In this document: positions 11,251-53,582 of the stretch, in pieces
How positions within the stretch are numbered: the stretch's first letter is position 1
Layout of the letters: the number at the start of each line of letters is the position of its first letter
Source of the DNA: Pseudotabrizicola sediminis
GTDB lineage: Bacteria > Pseudomonadota > Alphaproteobacteria > Rhodobacterales > Rhodobacteraceae
Direction: 5' to 3'
Assembly (NCBI RefSeq): GCF_004745575.1
Contig: NZ_RPEM01000003.1
Coordinates: 186,001 to 250,000 of the forward strand
DNA: 64,000 nt
Position numbers and translations under genes: made by a program
Notes under the pieces: generated by a model
The model's database searches: none
The model's input: the letters and a program-made list of their open reading frames with translations, nothing else
Told to the model about the DNA's origin: nothing

Positions 11251-11879
11251 TGCCTTGGGACCGCAACCAAATGGCCGCCCGCGCGGCACAGGAACTGCAG
11301 GACGGCTGGTATGTGAACCTCGGTATCGGCATCCCGACGCTGGTGTCGAACTACATTCCGCCGGGCGTCAACGTGACCCTGCAATCGGAAAACGGCATGC
11401 TCGGCATGGGCCCGTTTCCGTTCGAGGGCGAAGAAGACGCCGATCTGATCAACGCCGGCAAGCAGACCATCACCGAACTGCCGCAGACCGCGTTTTTCGA
11501 CTCTGCCCAATCCTTTGCCATGATCCGCGGCGGCAAGATCGCCATGGCCATCCTTGGCGCGATGGAGGTGGCCGAAAACGGCGATCTGGCCAACTGGATG
11601 ATCCCGGGCAAACTGGTCAAGGGCATGGGCGGCGCGATGGACCTTGTGGCCGGGGTGGGCCGCGTCGTGGTGGTGATGGACCACACCAGCAAACACGGCG
11701 AGTCCAAAGTATTGAAATCCTGCACTTTGCCGCTGACCGGCAAGGCGGTGGTCGACCGCATCATCACCAACCTTGGCGTGCTCGATGTCGTCCCCGGTGG
11801 CCTCAAGCTCGTTGAACTTGCGGGTGGCGTGACCGAAGCCGAACTGCGCGCCGCGACAGAGGCAACCCTTGTCGACTGA
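11250..11879 (+). CDS. 3-oxoacid CoA-transferase subunit B
   Basis: This is a 209-residue beta subunit. It carries [12 protein letters not shown] (residues 50-61), whose Glu is the residue that forms the enzyme-CoA thioester in this family, plus [15 protein letters not shown] and MDHTSKHGE. It works as a heteromer with the preceding gene in ketone body and branched-chain or aromatic acid degradation. The start overlaps the subunit A stop by one base. The 3' end overlaps the small acetyltransferase that follows by 11 bases. Confidence 0.93.
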
Positions 11880-44320: not shown

Positions 44321-44461
44321 GCCCCCAAGGCGGCAAACGGCAAGAGACTGCCTTGTGCGCCCTCCTCGCCGCGTCACCACTGGCAAGCGATTGATGCATA
44401 CCCTATACTAAACAAACAGGCCCGCCCGTCGCCGTGCCGCTGCCGCCAGAATGAGGCTGAT

Positions 44462-44545
44462 ATGTCCGGAAACGGGATGCAAACCCTGTCTTTCATCCTG
44501 CTGATCGGCCTAGTCGGCTATGTTGCCTTTGGCGGGGGGTTGTAG
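44462..44545 (+). CDS. 27-residue single-span microprotein coupled to the XpaC gene
   Basis: ATG at 44462, GAGG about ten bases before it, and a TAG at 44543-44545 that directly abuts the ATG of the next gene (TAGATG). The product has a short polar start (MSGNGMQ), a hydrophobic core TLSFILLIGLVGYVAF and a GGGL end, so it is a predicted single membrane span. Coding is supported by the ribosome site, the coupling and the clean hydrophobic pattern, but not by homology I can recall. It heads the 44.5-49.9 kb module. It could be a membrane partner of the XpaC-like or TelA-like protein. Confidence 0.65.
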   Translation: MSGNGMQTLSFILLIGLVGYVAFGGGL

Positions 44546-45424
44546 ATGGCACAGCGTTTTGGTGGCCGGTTCAGCCCGGGGGCTTCGCCCGATGCCAAGG
44601 GCACGCCACCACCGGCCCACCCCTTTGATGGCAAACAACCGCTCAAAGGTGCCGGTCGCGCCCGGTTTCTGGGTATCGCGGCACTGCTGTTCCTGCCCGC
44701 CGCCTTCACCGGCAGCCCAGATGCACTGCTGTTTGGGCTGGCCGCCACGGCCCTGATGCTCGCCGCCGCTTTCCTTACGCGGGAAGGGCTGAAGGCCCAT
44801 GCCGCCTTTGACGCGCGCAAGATTGCCCGCCGCCCGGCCTTTCCGCGCAAGATCTTCGGATCGGTGCTGACCGGGGCCGCCCTGGTGGCCGGCGGGTTGA
44901 TGAGCCATGATGGCGTGCTTTATCCGCTGCTGTTCGGCTTTGCCGGGGCTGCGCTGCATTTCAACACCTTCGGCCCCGATCCGCTGCGCGACAAGGGCAG
45001 CGAGGGGATTGATACCTTCCAGACCGACCGCGTCGCCCGCGCCGTGGATGAGGCGGAAAAGCATCTGACCGCGATGCGTGATGCCATCCTGCGCGCGAAT
45101 GACCGCCAGCTGGAGATGCGGGTCGACCGCTTCATCGCCGCCGCCCGCCAACTGTTCCGCACGGTCGAGGACGATCCGCGCGATCTGACCGCCGCCCGCA
45201 AGTACCTGTCGGTCTACCTGATGGGCGCGCGTGACGCGACGGTCAAGTTCGCCGACCTGTATGCACGGTCACGCGATGCGCAAGCCCGCAGCGAATACAT
45301 CGCGCTGCTGGATGACCTTGAAACCACCTTCGCCGACCGCTCGCGCCGCCTGCTCAACGACAATCGCAGCGATCTGGATGTCGAGATTTCCGTGCTGCGC
45401 GACCGGCTGAAAACCGAAGCATAA
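44546..45424 (+). CDS. XpaC-family membrane protein
   Basis: The 292-residue protein resembles XpaC, the 5-bromo-4-chloroindolyl phosphate hydrolysis family. It has two closely paired membrane segments (FLGIAALLFLPAAFTG, ALLFGLAATALMLAAAF) and another pair near residues 110-140, then a helical cytosolic C-terminal half (EAEKHLTAMRDAIL, FIAAARQLFRTVEDDPRDLTAARKYLSVYLMGA). The family's name comes from a phenotype; the enzymatic role is uncertain. In Bacillus xpaC is paired with the TelA-like yaaN. Here a TelA gene follows after 42 bp, so the pair is conserved. Confidence 0.82.
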   Translation: MAQRFGGRFSPGASPDAKGTPPPAHPFDGKQPLKGAGRARFLGIAALLFLPAAFTGSPDALLFGLAATALMLAAAFLTREGLKAHAAFDARKIARRPAFPRKIFGSVLTGAALVAGGLMSHDGVLYPLLFGFAGAALHFNTFGPDPLRDKGSEGIDTFQTDRVARAVDEAEKHLTAMRDAILRANDRQLEMRVDRFIAAARQLFRTVEDDPRDLTAARKYLSVYLMGARDATVKFADLYARSRDAQARSEYIALLDDLETTFADRSRRLLNDNRSDLDVEISVLRDRLKTEA

Positions 45425-45466
45425 ACGCCCCACCCCATTGACCGACACTCCATTGAAAGTAGCGCC

Positions 45467-46639
45467 ATGAAAACCACCACCCGCGAACAGGCCGCCCAGA
45501 CCCTGACCCAGATCGAGGAAGTCACCGCCGTTGTCCTGCCCGAACCGGGAACCGAGATCGTGCCGCTGACCACTGCCACCGGCAACAAGGCGACAGAGAT
45601 CCGCACACGCATGGCCGAGCTTGAGATGGACAATACCCAGTCGATCATCTCGTTCGGGTCGAAAGCACAGGCCGAGCTGCAGGTGATTTCGCAGGAAATG
45701 CTGGCCGATGTGAAGAACAAGGATGCCGGCCCCGCAGGCGACAGCTTGCGCCAGATCGTCACCACCATCCGGGGGTTCGGGGCCGAAGAGCTGGACCTGC
45801 GCCGTGACCGCAGCTGGTGGGAAAAGCTGCTGGGCCGCGCCGCGCCCTTTGCCAAGTTCGTCTCGCGTTACGAAACCGTGCAGGGTCAGATCGACAAGGT
45901 CACCGAAGACCTGCTGCGCCATGAACACACGCTTCTGAAAGACATCCGCTCGCTGGATGTGCTCTATGAAAAGACCCTGAACTTCTACGACGAACTCGCG
46001 CTCTATATCGCGGCGGGTGAGGCGAAGATGGCCGATCTTGACGCAACCACCATCCCCGCCAAAGAGGCAGAAGTCGCCGCAGCCCCCGAAAATGATCAGG
46101 TGAAAACAGCGCAGGAACTGCGCGACCTGCGCGCCGCGCGCGATGATCTGGAACGCCGGGTGCACGACCTGAAACTGACCCGTCAGGTCACCATGCAATC
46201 ACTGCCCTCGATCCGTCTGGTGCAGGAAAACGACAAATCTCTGGTCACCAAGATCAACTCGACGCTGGTGAACACCGTGCCCCTGTGGGAAACCCAGCTG
46301 GCGCAGGCCGTCACCATCCAGCGGTCGCGCGAGGCGGCGGACGCCGTGCGCGGCGCCAATGACCTGACCAACGAGCTCTTGACCAAAAACGCCGACAACC
46401 TGCGCGAAACCAACCGCGTCGTGCGGACAGAAATGGAACGGGGCGTCTTCGACATCGCTTCGGTCAAGCAGGCGAACGATCAGCTGATCGCCACCATCAA
46501 CGACAGCCTGCAGATCGCCGATGAAGGCAAGGCCCGTCGCGCCGCCGCCGAAGTCGAGCTGCAGAAGATGGAGTCCGAACTGCGCGATACGCTTGCCTCG
46601 GCCACCGCGCGCCGCCCTGCCCCGCAGACCCAAGGATAA
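45467..46639 (+). CDS. TelA-family protein (toxic anion resistance)
   Basis: The 390-residue, largely helical protein matches TelA/YaaN: IISFGSKAQAELQVISQEMLADVKNKDAGPAGDSL, LLGRAAPFAKFVSRYETVQGQID, HTLLKDIRSLDVLYEKTLNFYDEL, and VNTVPLWETQLAQAVTI. TelA is linked to tellurite and antibiotic tolerance, but its biochemistry is unsettled. It is soluble and acts with a membrane partner, probably the XpaC protein upstream. GAAAGTAGCGCC precedes the ATG. The DUF2927 gene starts ten bp after its stop. Confidence 0.9.
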   Translation: MKTTTREQAAQTLTQIEEVTAVVLPEPGTEIVPLTTATGNKATEIRTRMAELEMDNTQSIISFGSKAQAELQVISQEMLADVKNKDAGPAGDSLRQIVTTIRGFGAEELDLRRDRSWWEKLLGRAAPFAKFVSRYETVQGQIDKVTEDLLRHEHTLLKDIRSLDVLYEKTLNFYDELALYIAAGEAKMADLDATTIPAKEAEVAAAPENDQVKTAQELRDLRAARDDLERRVHDLKLTRQVTMQSLPSIRLVQENDKSLVTKINSTLVNTVPLWETQLAQAVTIQRSREAADAVRGANDLTNELLTKNADNLRETNRVVRTEMERGVFDIASVKQANDQLIATINDSLQIADEGKARRAAAEVELQKMESELRDTLASATARRPAPQTQG

Positions 46640-46649
46640 GCCCCACCCT

Positions 46650-47603
46650 ATGCGCGTTTCCGCTGTTTTCCGTAGTACCGTGTCCGCCCTGTGCGGTCTG
46701 GCGCTTGTGGGCTGCGTGGCCAGCCCACAGGCGCCGCGCACATCACCCAACGCACCCGCGCGCCCTGCGGCGGTGGTGGTGCCGCAAATGCCGCCCTCGG
46801 CCGCAAGTCAGGCCGTGCGTCTGCATTTCGCCCGGGTGCAGGCAGATCTTTTGTCCAACGGGTTGCTGCGCACCGATGGCGGCGGGCGCGACACGCCCTT
46901 TACCGACCGGATGCTGGCGGAAAACTTCATCCGCATCGCCCTTTACGACGAATATGTGCGCGGCAATGCGGGTCCGGTCCAGCGCGAGGCTCCCAGCCGG
47001 TTGCGCCGCTGGGAAACCCCGGTGCGGGTCGGCCTGCGTTTTGGTGCCTCGGTCAGCCCCAGCGCCCGCGCTACCGATACCGCGCGTGTGCGGTCCTACC
47101 TCGCCCGCCTCAGCCGCCTGACCGGCCACCCCATTGCGTTGAACGATGCAGCCCCGAACTTCTACGTGTACATCGTGAACGAAGACGAACGCCGCGCGCT
47201 TGGCCCGGTCGCATCCGCCGCCCTGCCCGGCCTGTCGGCGGGTGAGGTTGCGGGCATCACCAACATGCCGATATCCACCTATTGTCTGGTCTATGCCATG
47301 TCCGAAGGCAACTCGGGCCGCTATACCCGCGCCTTCGCGGTGATCCGGGCCGAACATCCCGACCTGTTGCGCCTGTCCTGCATGCATGAAGAAATCGCGC
47401 AAGCCATGGGCCTTGCCAATGACAGCCCGCGCGCGCGTCCGTCGATCTTCAACGATGACGAGGAATTTGCCCTGCTGACCGGGCAGGACGAGCTGATGCT
47501 GCGCATGCTCTACAACCCCGCCCTGCGCACCGGCATGGCCGAGGCAGAGGCGCGGCCCATTGTCGAATCCCTTGCGCGCGCGCTGATGGGCGGCGAAAGT
47601 TGA
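46650..47603 (+). CDS. DUF2927 lipoprotein
   Basis: The 317-residue protein has a lipoprotein signal (VSALCGLALVGC, Cys21 or nearby) followed by DUF2927. The conserved core includes FVAPISVGL-like RVGLRFGASVSPS, STYCLVYAMSEG and LRLSCMHEEIAQAMGLANDSP. The HEE-x-x-Q pattern resembles a metal-dependent hydrolase site, so a metalloprotease-like function in the periplasm is an inference. It lies between TelA (10 bp) and the SPFH gene (47 bp). Confidence 0.82.
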   Translation: MRVSAVFRSTVSALCGLALVGCVASPQAPRTSPNAPARPAAVVVPQMPPSAASQAVRLHFARVQADLLSNGLLRTDGGGRDTPFTDRMLAENFIRIALYDEYVRGNAGPVQREAPSRLRRWETPVRVGLRFGASVSPSARATDTARVRSYLARLSRLTGHPIALNDAAPNFYVYIVNEDERRALGPVASAALPGLSAGEVAGITNMPISTYCLVYAMSEGNSGRYTRAFAVIRAEHPDLLRLSCMHEEIAQAMGLANDSPRARPSIFNDDEEFALLTGQDELMLRMLYNPALRTGMAEAEARPIVESLARALMGGES

Positions 47604-47650
47604 CCCCACCCCCGGCATGACGATCAGACCGGACCCAACGGAGAAGTGCC

Positions 47651-48754
47651 ATGGTATTCGATTTCCTCAAAGGCGAATTCATCGACGTCATTTCCTTTCT
47701 GGATGACACCCGCGACACGATGGTCTGGCGGTTTGAACGCCGGGGGCAGGCCATCAAATACGGGGCCAAGCTGACCGTGCGCGAAGGTCAGGCGGCGGTC
47801 TTCGTGCATGAAGGGCAGCTGGCCGATGTCTTCGGCCCCGGCCTCTACATGCTGGAAACCAACAACATGCCGGTGATGACCACCCTGCAGCACTGGGATC
47901 ACGGCTTTTCCAGCCCGTTCAAGTCCGAGGTGTATTTCATCAACACCACCCGCTTCAACGACCAGAAGTGGGGCACCAAGAACCCGATCATGACCCGCGA
48001 CCCGGAATTCGGGCCCGTGCGGATCCGCGCCTTTGGCACCTATTCCATGCGCGTCAGCGATCCGGCGGTGTTTCTGCGCGAAATCGTCGGCACCGATGGC
48101 GAATTCACCGCCGATGAAGTGTCCTACCAGATCCGCAACATCATCGTGCAGGAGTTCAGCCGGACCATCGCATCCTCCGGCATTCCGGTGCTCGACATGG
48201 CGGCCAACACCGCCGATATGGGCAAGATCATCACCACCGCGATCAACCCGCTGGTGGCCGAATACGGCCTGACCCTGCCGGAATTCTACATCGAAAACAT
48301 CAGCCTGCCGGAAGAGGTCGAAAAGGTGCTCGACAAGCGCACCTCGGTCGGCATCGCAGGGGATCTGAACAAATACATGCAGTTCAACGCCGCCGAAGGC
48401 ATCGCCAACCCCGCATCGGGCGCAGGCGCGATGATAGGCGCGGGCATGGCTGCCGGAATGGGCGCGGCAATGGCGCAAGCCGCCGGCCCATGGGGTGCCC
48501 CACCCGCCACCATCCCGGCCGCAGCGGCACCGCCGCCGCCACCGCCGGCCGCCGCAGCGGTCTGGCATCTGGCCGAAAACGGCGCGACCAAAGGCCCGTT
48601 TGACGAAGCCACCCTTTCCGCCATGGCCGCCACAGGCCAGATCACCCGCGCCAGCATGGTCTGGACCGCCGGGCAGGACGGCTGGAAAACGGCCAGCGAC
48701 ACCCCGCTGAGCCGCCTGTTCGACTCTGTCCCGCCCCCCCCGCCCGCGCCGTAA
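47651..48754 (+). CDS. SPFH/YdjI-like protein with C-terminal GYF_2-like domain
   Basis: The 367-residue protein has an SPFH-type domain of the 'virion core protein'/YdjI kind: VFDFLKGEFIDVISFLDDTRDTMVWRF in parts, AAVFVHEGQLADVFGPGLYML, IRAFGTYSMRVSDP and IIVQEFSRTIASSGIPVLDM. A Gly/Ala/Pro-rich linker (about 255-305) leads to VWHLAENGATKGPFDEATL...ASMVWTAGQDGWKTA, a GYF_2-like domain that binds proline-rich or membrane partners. SPFH proteins form membrane-associated scaffolds. In Bacillus YdjI works with the zinc-ribbon membrane protein YdjG, and here such a protein is encoded 3 bp downstream. Confidence 0.88.
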   Translation: MVFDFLKGEFIDVISFLDDTRDTMVWRFERRGQAIKYGAKLTVREGQAAVFVHEGQLADVFGPGLYMLETNNMPVMTTLQHWDHGFSSPFKSEVYFINTTRFNDQKWGTKNPIMTRDPEFGPVRIRAFGTYSMRVSDPAVFLREIVGTDGEFTADEVSYQIRNIIVQEFSRTIASSGIPVLDMAANTADMGKIITTAINPLVAEYGLTLPEFYIENISLPEEVEKVLDKRTSVGIAGDLNKYMQFNAAEGIANPASGAGAMIGAGMAAGMGAAMAQAAGPWGAPPATIPAAAAPPPPPPAAAAVWHLAENGATKGPFDEATLSAMAATGQITRASMVWTAGQDGWKTASDTPLSRLFDSVPPPPPAP

Positions 48755-48757
48755 AGC

Positions 48758-49855
48758 ATGCCCGACCAAGACCACCGCTGGCCCTGCGAAAGCTGCGGCG
48801 CAGACCTGCGTTTTTCGCCCGGCGATACCGCGCTGAAATGCGATCATTGCGGCCATGTGCAGGCCCTGCCCGACGCGCCCGCCGCCCGGCAGACCGCACT
48901 GGCAGAGCTTGATCTGAACCGCGCCCTGCAAGACGACCTGCCCCCTGCCGATATGGAAGAGGTGCGCATCACCCCCTGCCCCTCCTGCGGCGCGCAGGTG
49001 GAATTCCACGGGGCCGAACACGCCACCGAATGCCCGTTCTGCGCCACCCCGGTGGCCATCGGCACCGGCACAGAGCGCCTGATCAAACCGCAGGCCGTGC
49101 TGCCCTTTGCCCTGACCGAACGGCAGGGACGCGAGGCGATGGTGAACTGGCTGGGCAGCCTGTGGTTTGCCCCGAACAGCCTGGTGGAATACGCGCGTAA
49201 GGGCCGCACTCTTTCGGGCCTCTACGTTCCCTACTGGACCTATGATGCCGCCACCCGCAGCCGCTATTCCGGCGCGCGCGGCACCCATTACTATGAAACC
49301 CGCACCGTGACCGTGCAGGTCAACGGCAAGAACCAGCGGCAGCAACAGCAGGTGCGCAAGACCCGCTGGCAATCCGCCTCGGGCTGGGTCTCGCGCCGGT
49401 TCGATGATGTGCTGGTGCTGGCCAGCGCCTCGCTGCCGCGCCGCTATACCGATGCGCTGGCCCCGTGGGATCTGGGCGCGCTGGTGCCCTATTCGCCCGA
49501 TTACCTCGCAGGCTTCACGTCTGAGGGCTACACCGTCAGCCTCGGCGATGGCCAGACCATCGCGCATCAGGTGATGGCCGCCCAGATCGCGCAGGACATC
49601 CGCCACGACATCGGCGGCGATGAACAGCGCATCGACCGGGTCGACACCGCCTATTCGGCCGAGACGTTCAAGCACATCCTGCTGCCGATCTGGATGGCCG
49701 CCTATAAATACAACGGCAAGACCTACCGCTTTGTCGTGAACGGCCAGACCGGCAAGGTGCAGGGCGAACGCCCCTATTCGGCGTGGAAGATCGCCTTCGC
49801 CGTCATCGCCGCCGCCATCCTCATCGGCGGGTTCGCGTATCTGAGCGAGATGTAG
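48758..49855 (+). CDS. Double zinc-ribbon membrane-anchored protein (YdjG-like)
   Basis: The 365-residue protein starts with two zinc ribbons (CESCGADLRF and CDHCGHVQ at residues 10-34; CPSCGAQVEF and CPFCATPVAIG at about 71-95). A conserved central domain follows (FALTERQGREAMVNWLGSLWFAPNSL, GLYVPYWTYDAAT), and it ends in one span (IAFAVIAAAILIGGFAYL). A short tail SEM faces the other side. It is of the type annotated as TFIIB-zinc-ribbon or 'primosomal protein-like' but has no helicase motifs. With the SPFH gene 3 bp upstream it recalls the YdjI-YdjG pair. Confidence 0.85.
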   Translation: MPDQDHRWPCESCGADLRFSPGDTALKCDHCGHVQALPDAPAARQTALAELDLNRALQDDLPPADMEEVRITPCPSCGAQVEFHGAEHATECPFCATPVAIGTGTERLIKPQAVLPFALTERQGREAMVNWLGSLWFAPNSLVEYARKGRTLSGLYVPYWTYDAATRSRYSGARGTHYYETRTVTVQVNGKNQRQQQQVRKTRWQSASGWVSRRFDDVLVLASASLPRRYTDALAPWDLGALVPYSPDYLAGFTSEGYTVSLGDGQTIAHQVMAAQIAQDIRHDIGGDEQRIDRVDTAYSAETFKHILLPIWMAAYKYNGKTYRFVVNGQTGKVQGERPYSAWKIAFAVIAAAILIGGFAYLSEM

Positions 49856-49928
49856 GATAGGCCCGCCCTTTCCGACCCCGCCACATTCGTCTAGAATCAT
49901 GCGACAATAAGAAATCAAAGGGCAGGCC

Positions 49929-51176
49929 ATGCAGATGAACAGACGCGCAGTTGTTTTGGGCCTCGGGGCCCTGTGGCTTTCCGGCTGCGTCGGTGGTGGC
50001 GGTACGGGTTCCGTCGTCTCGCGCGGGCCGGACCCCGGCATGTCGCCGGTGCCCAATGCGGGCTTTGACGCCTGGGTCACCAGCTACAAATCCCGCGCCG
50101 CCAGCCGGGGCCTGTCGCAATCCACCATCGACACCGCCTTCCGCAGTGCAGGCTTCCTGCCCGGCGTGGTGGAGCGTGACCGCAACCAGACCGAATTCAC
50201 CCGCACGCTGGAAGATTACCTCGCCATCGCCGCCAGCCCCGACCGTATCGCCAAGGGCCGCGCCGCATTGGCCCGCCATCGCGGCACCTTGGCCGCAATC
50301 GAGGCCCGCTACGGGGTCGAGGCCGAAGTAGTCACCGCCGTCTGGGGTCTGGAAAGCCAGTATGGCGAACGGCGCGGCACCGTGCCGGTGATCTCGGCGC
50401 TCGCAACCCTCGCCTATGACGGGCGACGCGGCGCGTTCTTTGAACAACAGCTCACCGCCGCCCTGCGCATCCTGCAAAACGGCGACACCACCCCCGCCAA
50501 CATGACCGGCAGCTGGGCGGGTGCCATGGGCCACACCCAGTTCATCCCGACCAGCTATCTGGAATTCGCCGTCGATTTCACCGGCGACGGGCGGCGCGAC
50601 ATCTGGGCCGATGACCCGACCGATGCGCTGGCCTCTGCCGCCGCGTACCTGTCACGCTCCGGCTGGCGCAAGGGCCAACCCTGGGGGGTCGAGGTGCGCC
50701 TGCCATCTGGCTTCAACACCGCCGTCACCGGGCGCGGCAAGGGCCGCAACCCGGCGGACTGGTCGGCGATGGGCGTGACCACCGCCGACGGCGGCCGCCT
50801 GCCCAACCACGGCGCAGGCTCCATCCTCATCCCGCAGGGGGCGGGTGGCCCGGCCTTCCTGATCTTCAACAATTTCAACGCCATCGCCCGCTACAACAAC
50901 GCGGTCAACTACGTCATCGGCGTCGGCCACCTGTCAGACCGGCTGCGCGGCGGCGGGCCCATCCGGGGCAACTTCCCGCCAGATGCCACCGGCATGACCA
51001 TTGCCGACCGCCAGGATCTGCAACGCCGCCTGACCGCCGCAGGCTTTGACACCGAAGGCAGCGACGGCGTCATCGGTGCCAAGACCCGCGCCGCAATCGA
51101 AGGCTTTCAGCGCGCCCGCGGCCTGCCCGTCACCGGCGAACCCTCGCGCAGCCTCTTGCAAACCCTCGGCGGCTGA
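49929..51176 (+). CDS. Lytic murein transglycosylase of MltB type, lipoprotein
   Basis: The 415-residue protein has a lipoprotein signal (AVVLGLGALWLSGC, Cys20), an MltB/SLT_2 catalytic domain with GLESQYGERRG (catalytic Glu) and AGAMGHTQFIPTSYLEFAVD, and a C-terminal PG_binding_1 domain (IADRQDLQRRLTAAGFDTEGSDGVIG). It cuts peptidoglycan and is anchored in the outer membrane. AAAGGGCAGG precedes the ATG. It may be co-transcribed with the module upstream (73-bp gap), which would tie that module to the envelope. Confidence 0.92.
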   Translation: MQMNRRAVVLGLGALWLSGCVGGGGTGSVVSRGPDPGMSPVPNAGFDAWVTSYKSRAASRGLSQSTIDTAFRSAGFLPGVVERDRNQTEFTRTLEDYLAIAASPDRIAKGRAALARHRGTLAAIEARYGVEAEVVTAVWGLESQYGERRGTVPVISALATLAYDGRRGAFFEQQLTAALRILQNGDTTPANMTGSWAGAMGHTQFIPTSYLEFAVDFTGDGRRDIWADDPTDALASAAAYLSRSGWRKGQPWGVEVRLPSGFNTAVTGRGKGRNPADWSAMGVTTADGGRLPNHGAGSILIPQGAGGPAFLIFNNFNAIARYNNAVNYVIGVGHLSDRLRGGGPIRGNFPPDATGMTIADRQDLQRRLTAAGFDTEGSDGVIGAKTRAAIEGFQRARGLPVTGEPSRSLLQTLGG

Positions 51177-52423: not shown

Positions 52424-52517
52424 CGTCATCCGCCTTGCAAAGACCGGTGCAGTGCCTAATCTGAACCGGAATTAACAGACCTTAACAAATCGGGATATGA
52501 TGATCGAACGGAGTGTC

Positions 52518-53582
52518 ATGCCGGAAACCGGCGATCGTCTATCCCTGACCGTCATGGGCGGGAGGGAGGCAGATTTCCTGCTGTCCATCCTCAACACCTC
52601 GCAGGACTGCCTTAAACTGCTTGAACCTGACGGCGTCCTGACCTTCATGAACGAAAACGGCATGCACGCGTTGGAGATTGACGCGTTCGACGCGGTCGGC
52701 GGTCGGTTCTGGCCCGACATGTGGCCTGCCCCCCTGCGTCCCACCCTCGAAGACGCGCTCTGCCGCGCCCGCAAGGGCGAGCGGGTGGTGTTCGAGGCCG
52801 AATGCCCCACCGTAAAAGGCACCGTGAAATGGTGGAACGTCTCGGTGCTGCCGATCCGCGGGGCAGATGGCGGGGTTCACAAACTGCTGGCCGCCTCGCG
52901 CGACATCACCGAACGGGTGCTGCGTGAACGCGAACAGATCGCCTATGCCAAGGATCTGGAACGCGAACTGGCCGAAAAATCCGAAATCCTGATCCAGCGT
53001 GACTTTCTGATGCGCGAAGTCGATCACCGGGTCAAGAACAGCCTGTCGCAGGTCGCGGCGATCCTGCGCCTGCAGGCCCGGCGCTCGTCCGACAGCGTGC
53101 GCGCCGCGCTGGACGAGGCGGCGCGTCGCGTGGCCTCCATCGCGCGGGTGCATGAACAGCTGCAATCCAGCAGCGATTTGCGTTCAATTGCCGTCGTGCC
53201 CCTGTTGCAGCGGCTTTGCGCCGAGTTTTCCTTGTCCTACGACCGTCAGGTCCACTTCAGCGCCGCCACCGATGATGATCTGACCATGCTGTCCGAACGC
53301 GCCGCGGCCCTGTGCATCATCGTCAGCGAGCTGGTGGCCAACGCCGTGCGCCACGGCAGCGGGGCGGGCCCGGTAACCGTCCATCTGCAGCAAACCGGGC
53401 CTGCCGCCGTCCTGCGTGTTGTCAATGCCGCCAGCCAAGCCCGCCCGCCCGCTGGCAATGCCGCCTCCGGCCTTGGCACGATGATCTGCGAAACCTATGC
53501 CTCCACGCTGGCGGGCGGGCTGGACTGGCAGTTTGCGGCGCAAACCATGACCGCAACCTTGACCTTCTCGCCCCAGACATAA
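52518..53582 (+). CDS. Cytosolic sensor histidine kinase (PAS plus HisKA_2)
   Basis: The 354-residue protein has an N-terminal PAS domain (ILNTSQDCLKLLEPDGVLTFMNENG, SVLPIRGADGG), a HisKA_2 phospho-acceptor box FLMREVDHRVKNSLSQVAAIL (phospho-His near residue 170), and a HATPase domain with IIVSELVANAVRHGSG and GLGTMICETY. No membrane span is visible. Members of this HWE/HisKA_2 branch often act in the general stress response or light sensing. No response regulator gene lies next to it. GGAG eight bases before 52518 supports that start. An earlier ATG at 52497 is in frame. Confidence 0.9.
   Translation: MPETGDRLSLTVMGGREADFLLSILNTSQDCLKLLEPDGVLTFMNENGMHALEIDAFDAVGGRFWPDMWPAPLRPTLEDALCRARKGERVVFEAECPTVKGTVKWWNVSVLPIRGADGGVHKLLAASRDITERVLREREQIAYAKDLERELAEKSEILIQRDFLMREVDHRVKNSLSQVAAILRLQARRSSDSVRAALDEAARRVASIARVHEQLQSSSDLRSIAVVPLLQRLCAEFSLSYDRQVHFSAATDDDLTMLSERAAALCIIVSELVANAVRHGSGAGPVTVHLQQTGPAAVLRVVNAASQARPPAGNAASGLGTMICETYASTLAGGLDWQFAAQTMTATLTFSPQT

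Follow-up and report, generated by a model that had tools for sequence, protein, structure and literature searches.

In a 64,000-nucleotide stretch of the Pseudotabrizicola sediminis genome (contig NZ_RPEM01000003.1, positions 186,001 to 250,000; hereafter the window), six open reading frames (ORFs) at 44462-49855 on the plus strand encode a 27-residue microprotein, an XpaC-like protein, a TelA/YaaN-like protein, a DUF2927 lipoprotein, an SPFH protein with a GYF domain, and a double zinc-ribbon protein. The locus is no oddity but a conserved operon, composed of two separable pairs, XpaC-TelA and SPFH-zinc ribbon, that occur in fused form in five or more families of the class Alphaproteobacteria. 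Both pairs have been connected with protection of the membrane in other bacteria, where they are often found apart; here they are joined, and the microprotein and DUF2927 are added. The operon may encode a PspA-independent scaffold at the inner membrane that protects the envelope, a reading whose chances are judged to be about even.

Composition of the operon

The window genome comprises 4.04 Mb in 86 contigs at 99.99% completeness, and its closest named relative in the scan was Pseudotabrizicola formosa (94% identity in DUF2927). The six ORFs run head to tail with gaps of 0, 42, 10, 47, and 3 bp, and the coordinates bear out their number, place, strand, and spacing as given in a preliminary description made from the sequence alone. 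The families named there (XpaC, TelA, DUF2927, SPFH, and GYF_2) all scored above the curated Pfam cut-offs. Transmembrane (TM) segments were called by hydropathy.

The XpaC-like protein (44546-45424; PF10112, XpaC/Halogen_Hydrol, 96.4 bits) has one clear TM segment (60-78), additional hydrophobic stretches judged by eye, and a conserved C-terminal domain. It is directly followed by the TelA/YaaN-like protein (45467-46639; PF05816, 349.8 bits), which has no TM segment, and then by the DUF2927 lipoprotein (46650-47603; PF11150, 219.3 bits). The SPFH protein (47651-48754), likewise devoid of TM segments, matches Band_7_1 (PF13421, 341.4) and carries a C-terminal GYF_2 domain (PF14237, 65.1) as well as a proline-rich linker and tail. 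Beside it, in the arrangement of the YdjI-YdjG pair, lies the zinc-ribbon protein (48758-49855), which was assigned by its cysteine pattern and hydropathy and for which Pfam zinc-ribbon matches were found only below threshold. Its two C-x2-C...C-x2-C ribbons (C10, C13, C28, C31 and C74, C77, C92, C95) are invariant among all 55 aligned proteins, and they precede a beta-rich middle part and a C-terminal TM anchor. A weak YpeB match in this protein agrees with the account of YdjG, in which a YpeB-related domain accompanies two zinc ribbons (PMC11237479). The Pfam search of the operon proteins in the window matched no ter, transporter, or reductase family and no regulator gene inside the operon.

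Conservation within Rhodobacteraceae

The family sample included 121 genomes from 58 genera, the sampled order being all one family, and XpaC was found in 118 genomes and 56 genera. Regions of up to 19 kb were fetched from one genome per genus (56 of the 118 genomes with XpaC), together with four extra regions, and genes in these relatives were called with alignment models, not Pfam. Of the 56 genus representatives, 45 had the full set of XpaC, TelA, DUF2927, SPFH/GYF, and zinc ribbon in this order, so that the genes first proposed as one module are indeed linked in most relatives. Six representatives had the first four genes only, three of them being cut by a contig end; two were missing DUF2927 from the operon; and XpaC-TelA-DUF2927, XpaC-TelA, and XpaC alone were found once each, the last two being the split loci of G110 and G092. 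A further set of 80 named loci, the best 80 of 570, was found through DUF2927 and therefore contains it by construction; all five genes were in order in 68 of these. Some contigs are common to both sets.

The distance between XpaC and TelA was at most 250 nt in 54 of the 55 genus representatives with both genes, and the same held for SPFH and the zinc-ribbon gene in 25 of 47 and for the other neighboring pairs in 42 of 51 or more. Inserted genes sometimes separate DUF2927 from SPFH and often separate SPFH from the zinc-ribbon gene. The latter interval frequently contains an extra membrane gene (L034, L061, L045, and others), which we take to resemble cytochrome b561. At locus L050, XpaC and TelA are separated by an extra ORF of 233 residues whose start is hydrophobic. 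A second, diverged XpaC lies directly upstream of xpaC in genomes G021, G039, G044, G053, G066, and G082 (loci L049, L058, L089, L063, L088, and L090, respectively).

Fused and separate pairs outside the family

The class sample consisted of 142 genomes, about one per family by their labels, with TelA found in 10 and a full-length or nearly full-length SPFH in seven. XpaC was found in six, a count that omits diverged XpaC-like genes near TelA in G155, G161, and G124 that fell below the threshold of that search. All four XpaC genomes outside the family (L092, L093, L094, and L098) encode XpaC-TelA-SPFH-zinc ribbon in order, with no DUF2927 between. These four are among the five SPFH genomes of 140, a coincidence with a chance of 3e-7, or 1e-5 when the diverged XpaC-like genes are counted. 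The latter (17-51 bits) occur near TelA with no SPFH at L096, L097, L099, and L100, in three genomes.

In the phylum sample, 16 of the 21 non-family SPFH matches of full or nearly full length were examined (15 loci and genome G132). A strong zinc-ribbon match adjoins SPFH at eight of the 15 loci, and none of the 15 had an XpaC or TelA match. Since the pairs are separate elsewhere and the core is without DUF2927 in four families, the operon is best described as two known pairs that were fused, with DUF2927 added. The proposal that both Bacillus-type pairs are joined in one operon is thus upheld by an order conserved across Rhodobacteraceae and four other families.

The microprotein and the upstream element

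The microprotein (44462-44545) ends with a stop codon that abuts the start of xpaC, and neither Pfam nor NCBIfam gave a match for it at E<=0.1. Nearly every family locus has a short ORF that ends where xpaC begins. Half of the genera served to train a profile hidden Markov model (HMM), which was applied to the remaining 28 in three splits; at E<=0.1 it matched at the xpaC start in 27, 28, and 26 of 28 and nowhere else among 11,636-11,803 ORF fragments, with the reservation that the pattern selecting the training peptides was written after viewing all genera. Relaxing the threshold to E<=1 gave 28, 28, and 26 matches at xpaC and three, one, and four elsewhere. The 99 distinct sequences vary in a coding-like manner, with entropies of 1.07, 0.77, and 1.46 at codon positions 1, 2, and 3; all 79 sequences that extend to position 1 of the peptide have ATG or GTG there, and in 81 of 136 the stop codon shares one base with the xpaC start. 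Only one of 137 loci (L085) had no match, and in G092 (L038) the microprotein still adjoins XpaC even though XpaC has left the operon. The microprotein is therefore real, and its conservation at the xpaC start and its predicted TM segment bear out its description as a 27-residue membrane peptide, which adds a conserved family new to the Pfam and NCBIfam models. The model found nothing at E<=3 in the nine non-family loci L092-L100, while the family control L109 was matched. At L034, L035, L041, L047, L061, L068, and L079, the microprotein appears as the tail of a longer candidate frame in which two hydrophobic stretches occur.

Upstream of the operon, a promoter-like element (CTGGCAAG-N15-CTATACT, containing CTGGCA-N18-TATACT) spans 44380-44409 on the plus strand, and the microprotein starts 52 bases further on. 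By score, the element is sigma-70-like, and it suggests the microprotein as the first gene of the operon. A consensus scan of the region yielded two sites of this kind, compared with a mean of 0.9 after shuffling, which is weak alone. The best 5+5 dyad of the element recurred in 16 of 76 upstream regions, compared with a maximum of four in five shuffles. Among 75 named loci, the element was present within two mismatches in 51 (shuffle mean 7.1, maximum 10) and exactly in 15 (shuffle 0.1), for a pattern that was chosen on the same data. The element by itself would give no pointer to a stress sigma factor.

The DUF2927 lipoprotein

The predicted structure of DUF2927 has the fold of a metzincin (matrix metalloprotease) catalytic domain, and the family hence gains a predicted fold. 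The motif CxxEExxQxxGxxND was present in all 67 aligned operon proteins, and the zinc-binding motif HExxHxxGxxH/D was present in none of them. Compared with Matrixin metzincins such as the matrix metalloproteases and karilysin, all three zinc histidines are replaced (by E, Q, and N) according to the motif spacing, and DUF2927, unlike these enzymes, is a bacterial lipoprotein. Because EExxQxxGxxND stands in place of HExxHxxGxxH, the modeled domain is probably a peptide-binding pseudo-peptidase whose zinc site was lost.

The view that DUF2927 completes the module stands in part: it is present here and usual in the family, but it is optional, being absent from the core in the four other families. 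It also forms a wider family of its own, with members in 17 of the 142 class genomes, including G183, one of the four fused non-family genomes, where it is encoded elsewhere in the genome. The window genome contains another DUF2927 gene above the cut-off (G000:C1:473170-473769) and a match below it (G000:C86:89144-89362). Of the three family genomes in which XpaC had no match, G011 and G106 encode a full-length DUF2927 with the other four genes not in the fetched stretch, the copy in G011 lying at a contig end. No mention of DUF2927 was found in the literature searched.

Relationship to known systems

To our knowledge, no function has been settled for XpaC, TelA, the zinc-ribbon protein of YdjG type, or DUF2927. 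The function proposed here would follow that of the Firmicutes relatives. In Bacillus subtilis, both xpaC-yaaN and pspA-ydjGHI belong to the sigma-W regulon (PMC3498285), which fits an envelope role. The Listeria counterpart lmo1966-1967 is bacteriocin-induced and described as LiaSR-regulated, and a disruptant of lmo1967 is cited as four-fold more susceptible to nisin and two-fold to tellurite, in an article that also calls the function of TelA/YaaN unsettled (PMC12791056). A transcriptome table for Lactococcus lactis includes llmg_1115 and telA1 as raised (PMC3139573), and an XpaC-like gene is reported as mutated or raised in several antimicrobial-resistant Firmicutes, its direct role being called uncertain (PMC7864038). 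A further report points to the same envelope role (PMC9239133).

As in the window, the B. subtilis, Listeria, and Lactococcus loci have an XpaC-family membrane protein followed by TelA/YaaN. Unlike B. subtilis xpaC-yaaN, the operon described here has a conserved microprotein in front and is fused to SPFH-zinc ribbon and usually to DUF2927. In control searches, PF10112 matched in L. lactis, whereas the B. subtilis control genome gave no match; hence, the equivalence of XpaC rests on the Pfam model and on published descriptions, and the name should be used with care.

The second pair resembles B. subtilis pspA-ydjGHI, where a Band_7_1 protein, matched in the control, also lies beside a two-zinc-ribbon TM protein. 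YdjI is likely soluble, and its membrane location requires YdjG and YdjH (PMC8581546). In contrast to that system, the SPFH protein here has a GYF domain, the pair is joined to XpaC-TelA, a TPM-domain protein is absent from the operon proteins, and PspA is undetected. The preliminary description had seen no PspA nearby, and this extends to the entire genome: PF04012 (PspA_IM30) had no match at E<=0.001 in the window genome or in the same-genus genome. Matches were found in 40 of the 121 family genomes, 39 of them above the cut-off, and in nine of 14 control genomes, which leaves about two thirds of the sampled hosts without a detected PspA.

The best solved-structure match of the GYF domain was to AglX/GltJ (7z3c, E 1.5e-5), a gliding-motility protein of Myxococcus that has a zinc ribbon of its own. 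The likeness is limited to the small GYF domain, as the match of the AglX/GltJ zinc ribbon to the window protein was not significant (7zok, E 0.62).

Proposed function and alternatives

The membership of both halves in Firmicutes envelope-stress regulons favors a membrane-protection scaffold. In such a scaffold, the microprotein and XpaC would form an inner-membrane unit holding the cytosolic TelA, and the zinc-ribbon protein, with its C-terminal TM helix as anchor, would keep the soluble SPFH-GYF protein at this membrane too, an arrangement likened to the way B. subtilis YdjG and YdjH hold YdjI. Assembly of the SPFH protein may be governed by its GYF domain and proline-rich segments. The most likely task of DUF2927, on the outer side of the inner membrane, is to bind peptides or fragments of the wall and so act as a sensor or tether. 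Upon envelope damage, the parts might jointly stabilize the membrane or local wall synthesis. We infer co-transcription of the genes, the topology of the products, and complex formation. A more specific version is tentative and rather doubtful: the operon would encode a PspA-independent envelope-guard machine spanning the inner membrane, in which XpaC has the microprotein as an obligate subunit and the zinc-less metzincin lipoprotein acts as the periplasmic peptide sensor, coupled to the cytosolic SPFH scaffold.

Several observations weigh against the scaffold. The zinc-ribbon fold match is under the clear-match level, and a TPM-domain (YdjH-like) protein had no match at E<=0.1 in the seven window proteins at 44462-51176, the rest of the genome being unsearched. 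Data on phenotype, expression, or interaction in Rhodobacteraceae were not found in the literature searched. The locus is split in G092, where TelA-DUF2927-SPFH-zinc ribbon are on another contig (L106) with XpaC detached, and in G110 (L103), where two tandem DUF2927 genes, SPFH, and the zinc-ribbon gene lie about 11 kb beyond TelA. SPFH is missing in G081, which kept XpaC-TelA-DUF2927, and five Gemmobacter-like and related named loci have these three genes with no SPFH or zinc-ribbon gene in the flank examined. The sigma-70-like look of the upstream element would also suit housekeeping over induced expression.

A housekeeping scaffold that organizes membrane domains for normal growth, for example by placing wall-synthesis or membrane complexes, with no stress response, is considered somewhat unlikely. 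It would suit the common promoter type, the near-universal presence in the family sample (118 of 121), the absence of a regulator gene inside the operon, and the mislocalized wall synthesis of B. subtilis YdjG/YdjH mutants, which is reported under stress (PMC8581546). However, the Firmicutes relatives of both halves belong to stress regulons, and XpaC appears dispensable because three near-complete family genomes have no XpaC match; a SPFH match is also absent in all three. It is improbable that XpaC-TelA, with the microprotein and DUF2927, and SPFH-zinc ribbon are merely co-transcribed and do not form one machine. The eight phylum-sample loci with SPFH and a strong zinc-ribbon match but no XpaC-TelA, the TelA loci L096, L097, L099, and L100 with a diverged XpaC-like gene and no SPFH, and the splits and SPFH loss in G092, G110, and G081 are in line with two independent pairs, whereas five families of the class have the identical fusion in the identical order, and an order kept in 45 of 56 genera despite inserted genes likewise argues for one unit.

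The preliminary description had also raised toxic-anion tolerance. There is little to support tellurite resistance as the main role, the case for which rests on the name given to TelA in Pfam and on effects in Firmicutes that are modest, and a tellurite or toxic-anion operon is very improbable. The two-fold effect of lmo1967 cited in PMC12791056 and the tellurite sensitivity upon lowering of the Lactococcus cremoris orf53-telABC locus (PMC13109727) point toward it. However, the nisin effect in Listeria exceeds that of tellurite (PMC12791056), no operon protein matched a ter, transporter, or reductase family, and a near-universal locus would be hard to account for by tellurite alone. The membrane-protection scaffold hence remains the favored reading. 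With both Firmicutes pairs fused in a locus kept by nearly every sampled member of a large family, the joint role of TelA, XpaC, and a YdjI-type SPFH protein becomes directly testable in hosts without PspA.

Neighboring genes

The operon is followed at 49929-51176 by a gene for an MltB-like lytic transglycosylase lipoprotein (SLT_2 and PG_binding_1), into which the module had been suggested to continue. This gene follows the operon in one of 60 family regions (L032, same genus) and three of 80 named loci (L130-L132, where L130 and L032 are the same contig). Being adjacent solely in close relatives of the window, it was ruled out as a part of the module. Two genes past the operon, at 52497-53582, lies an ORF that resembles a histidine kinase and for which L032, the locus of the same genus, gave the sole strong match.

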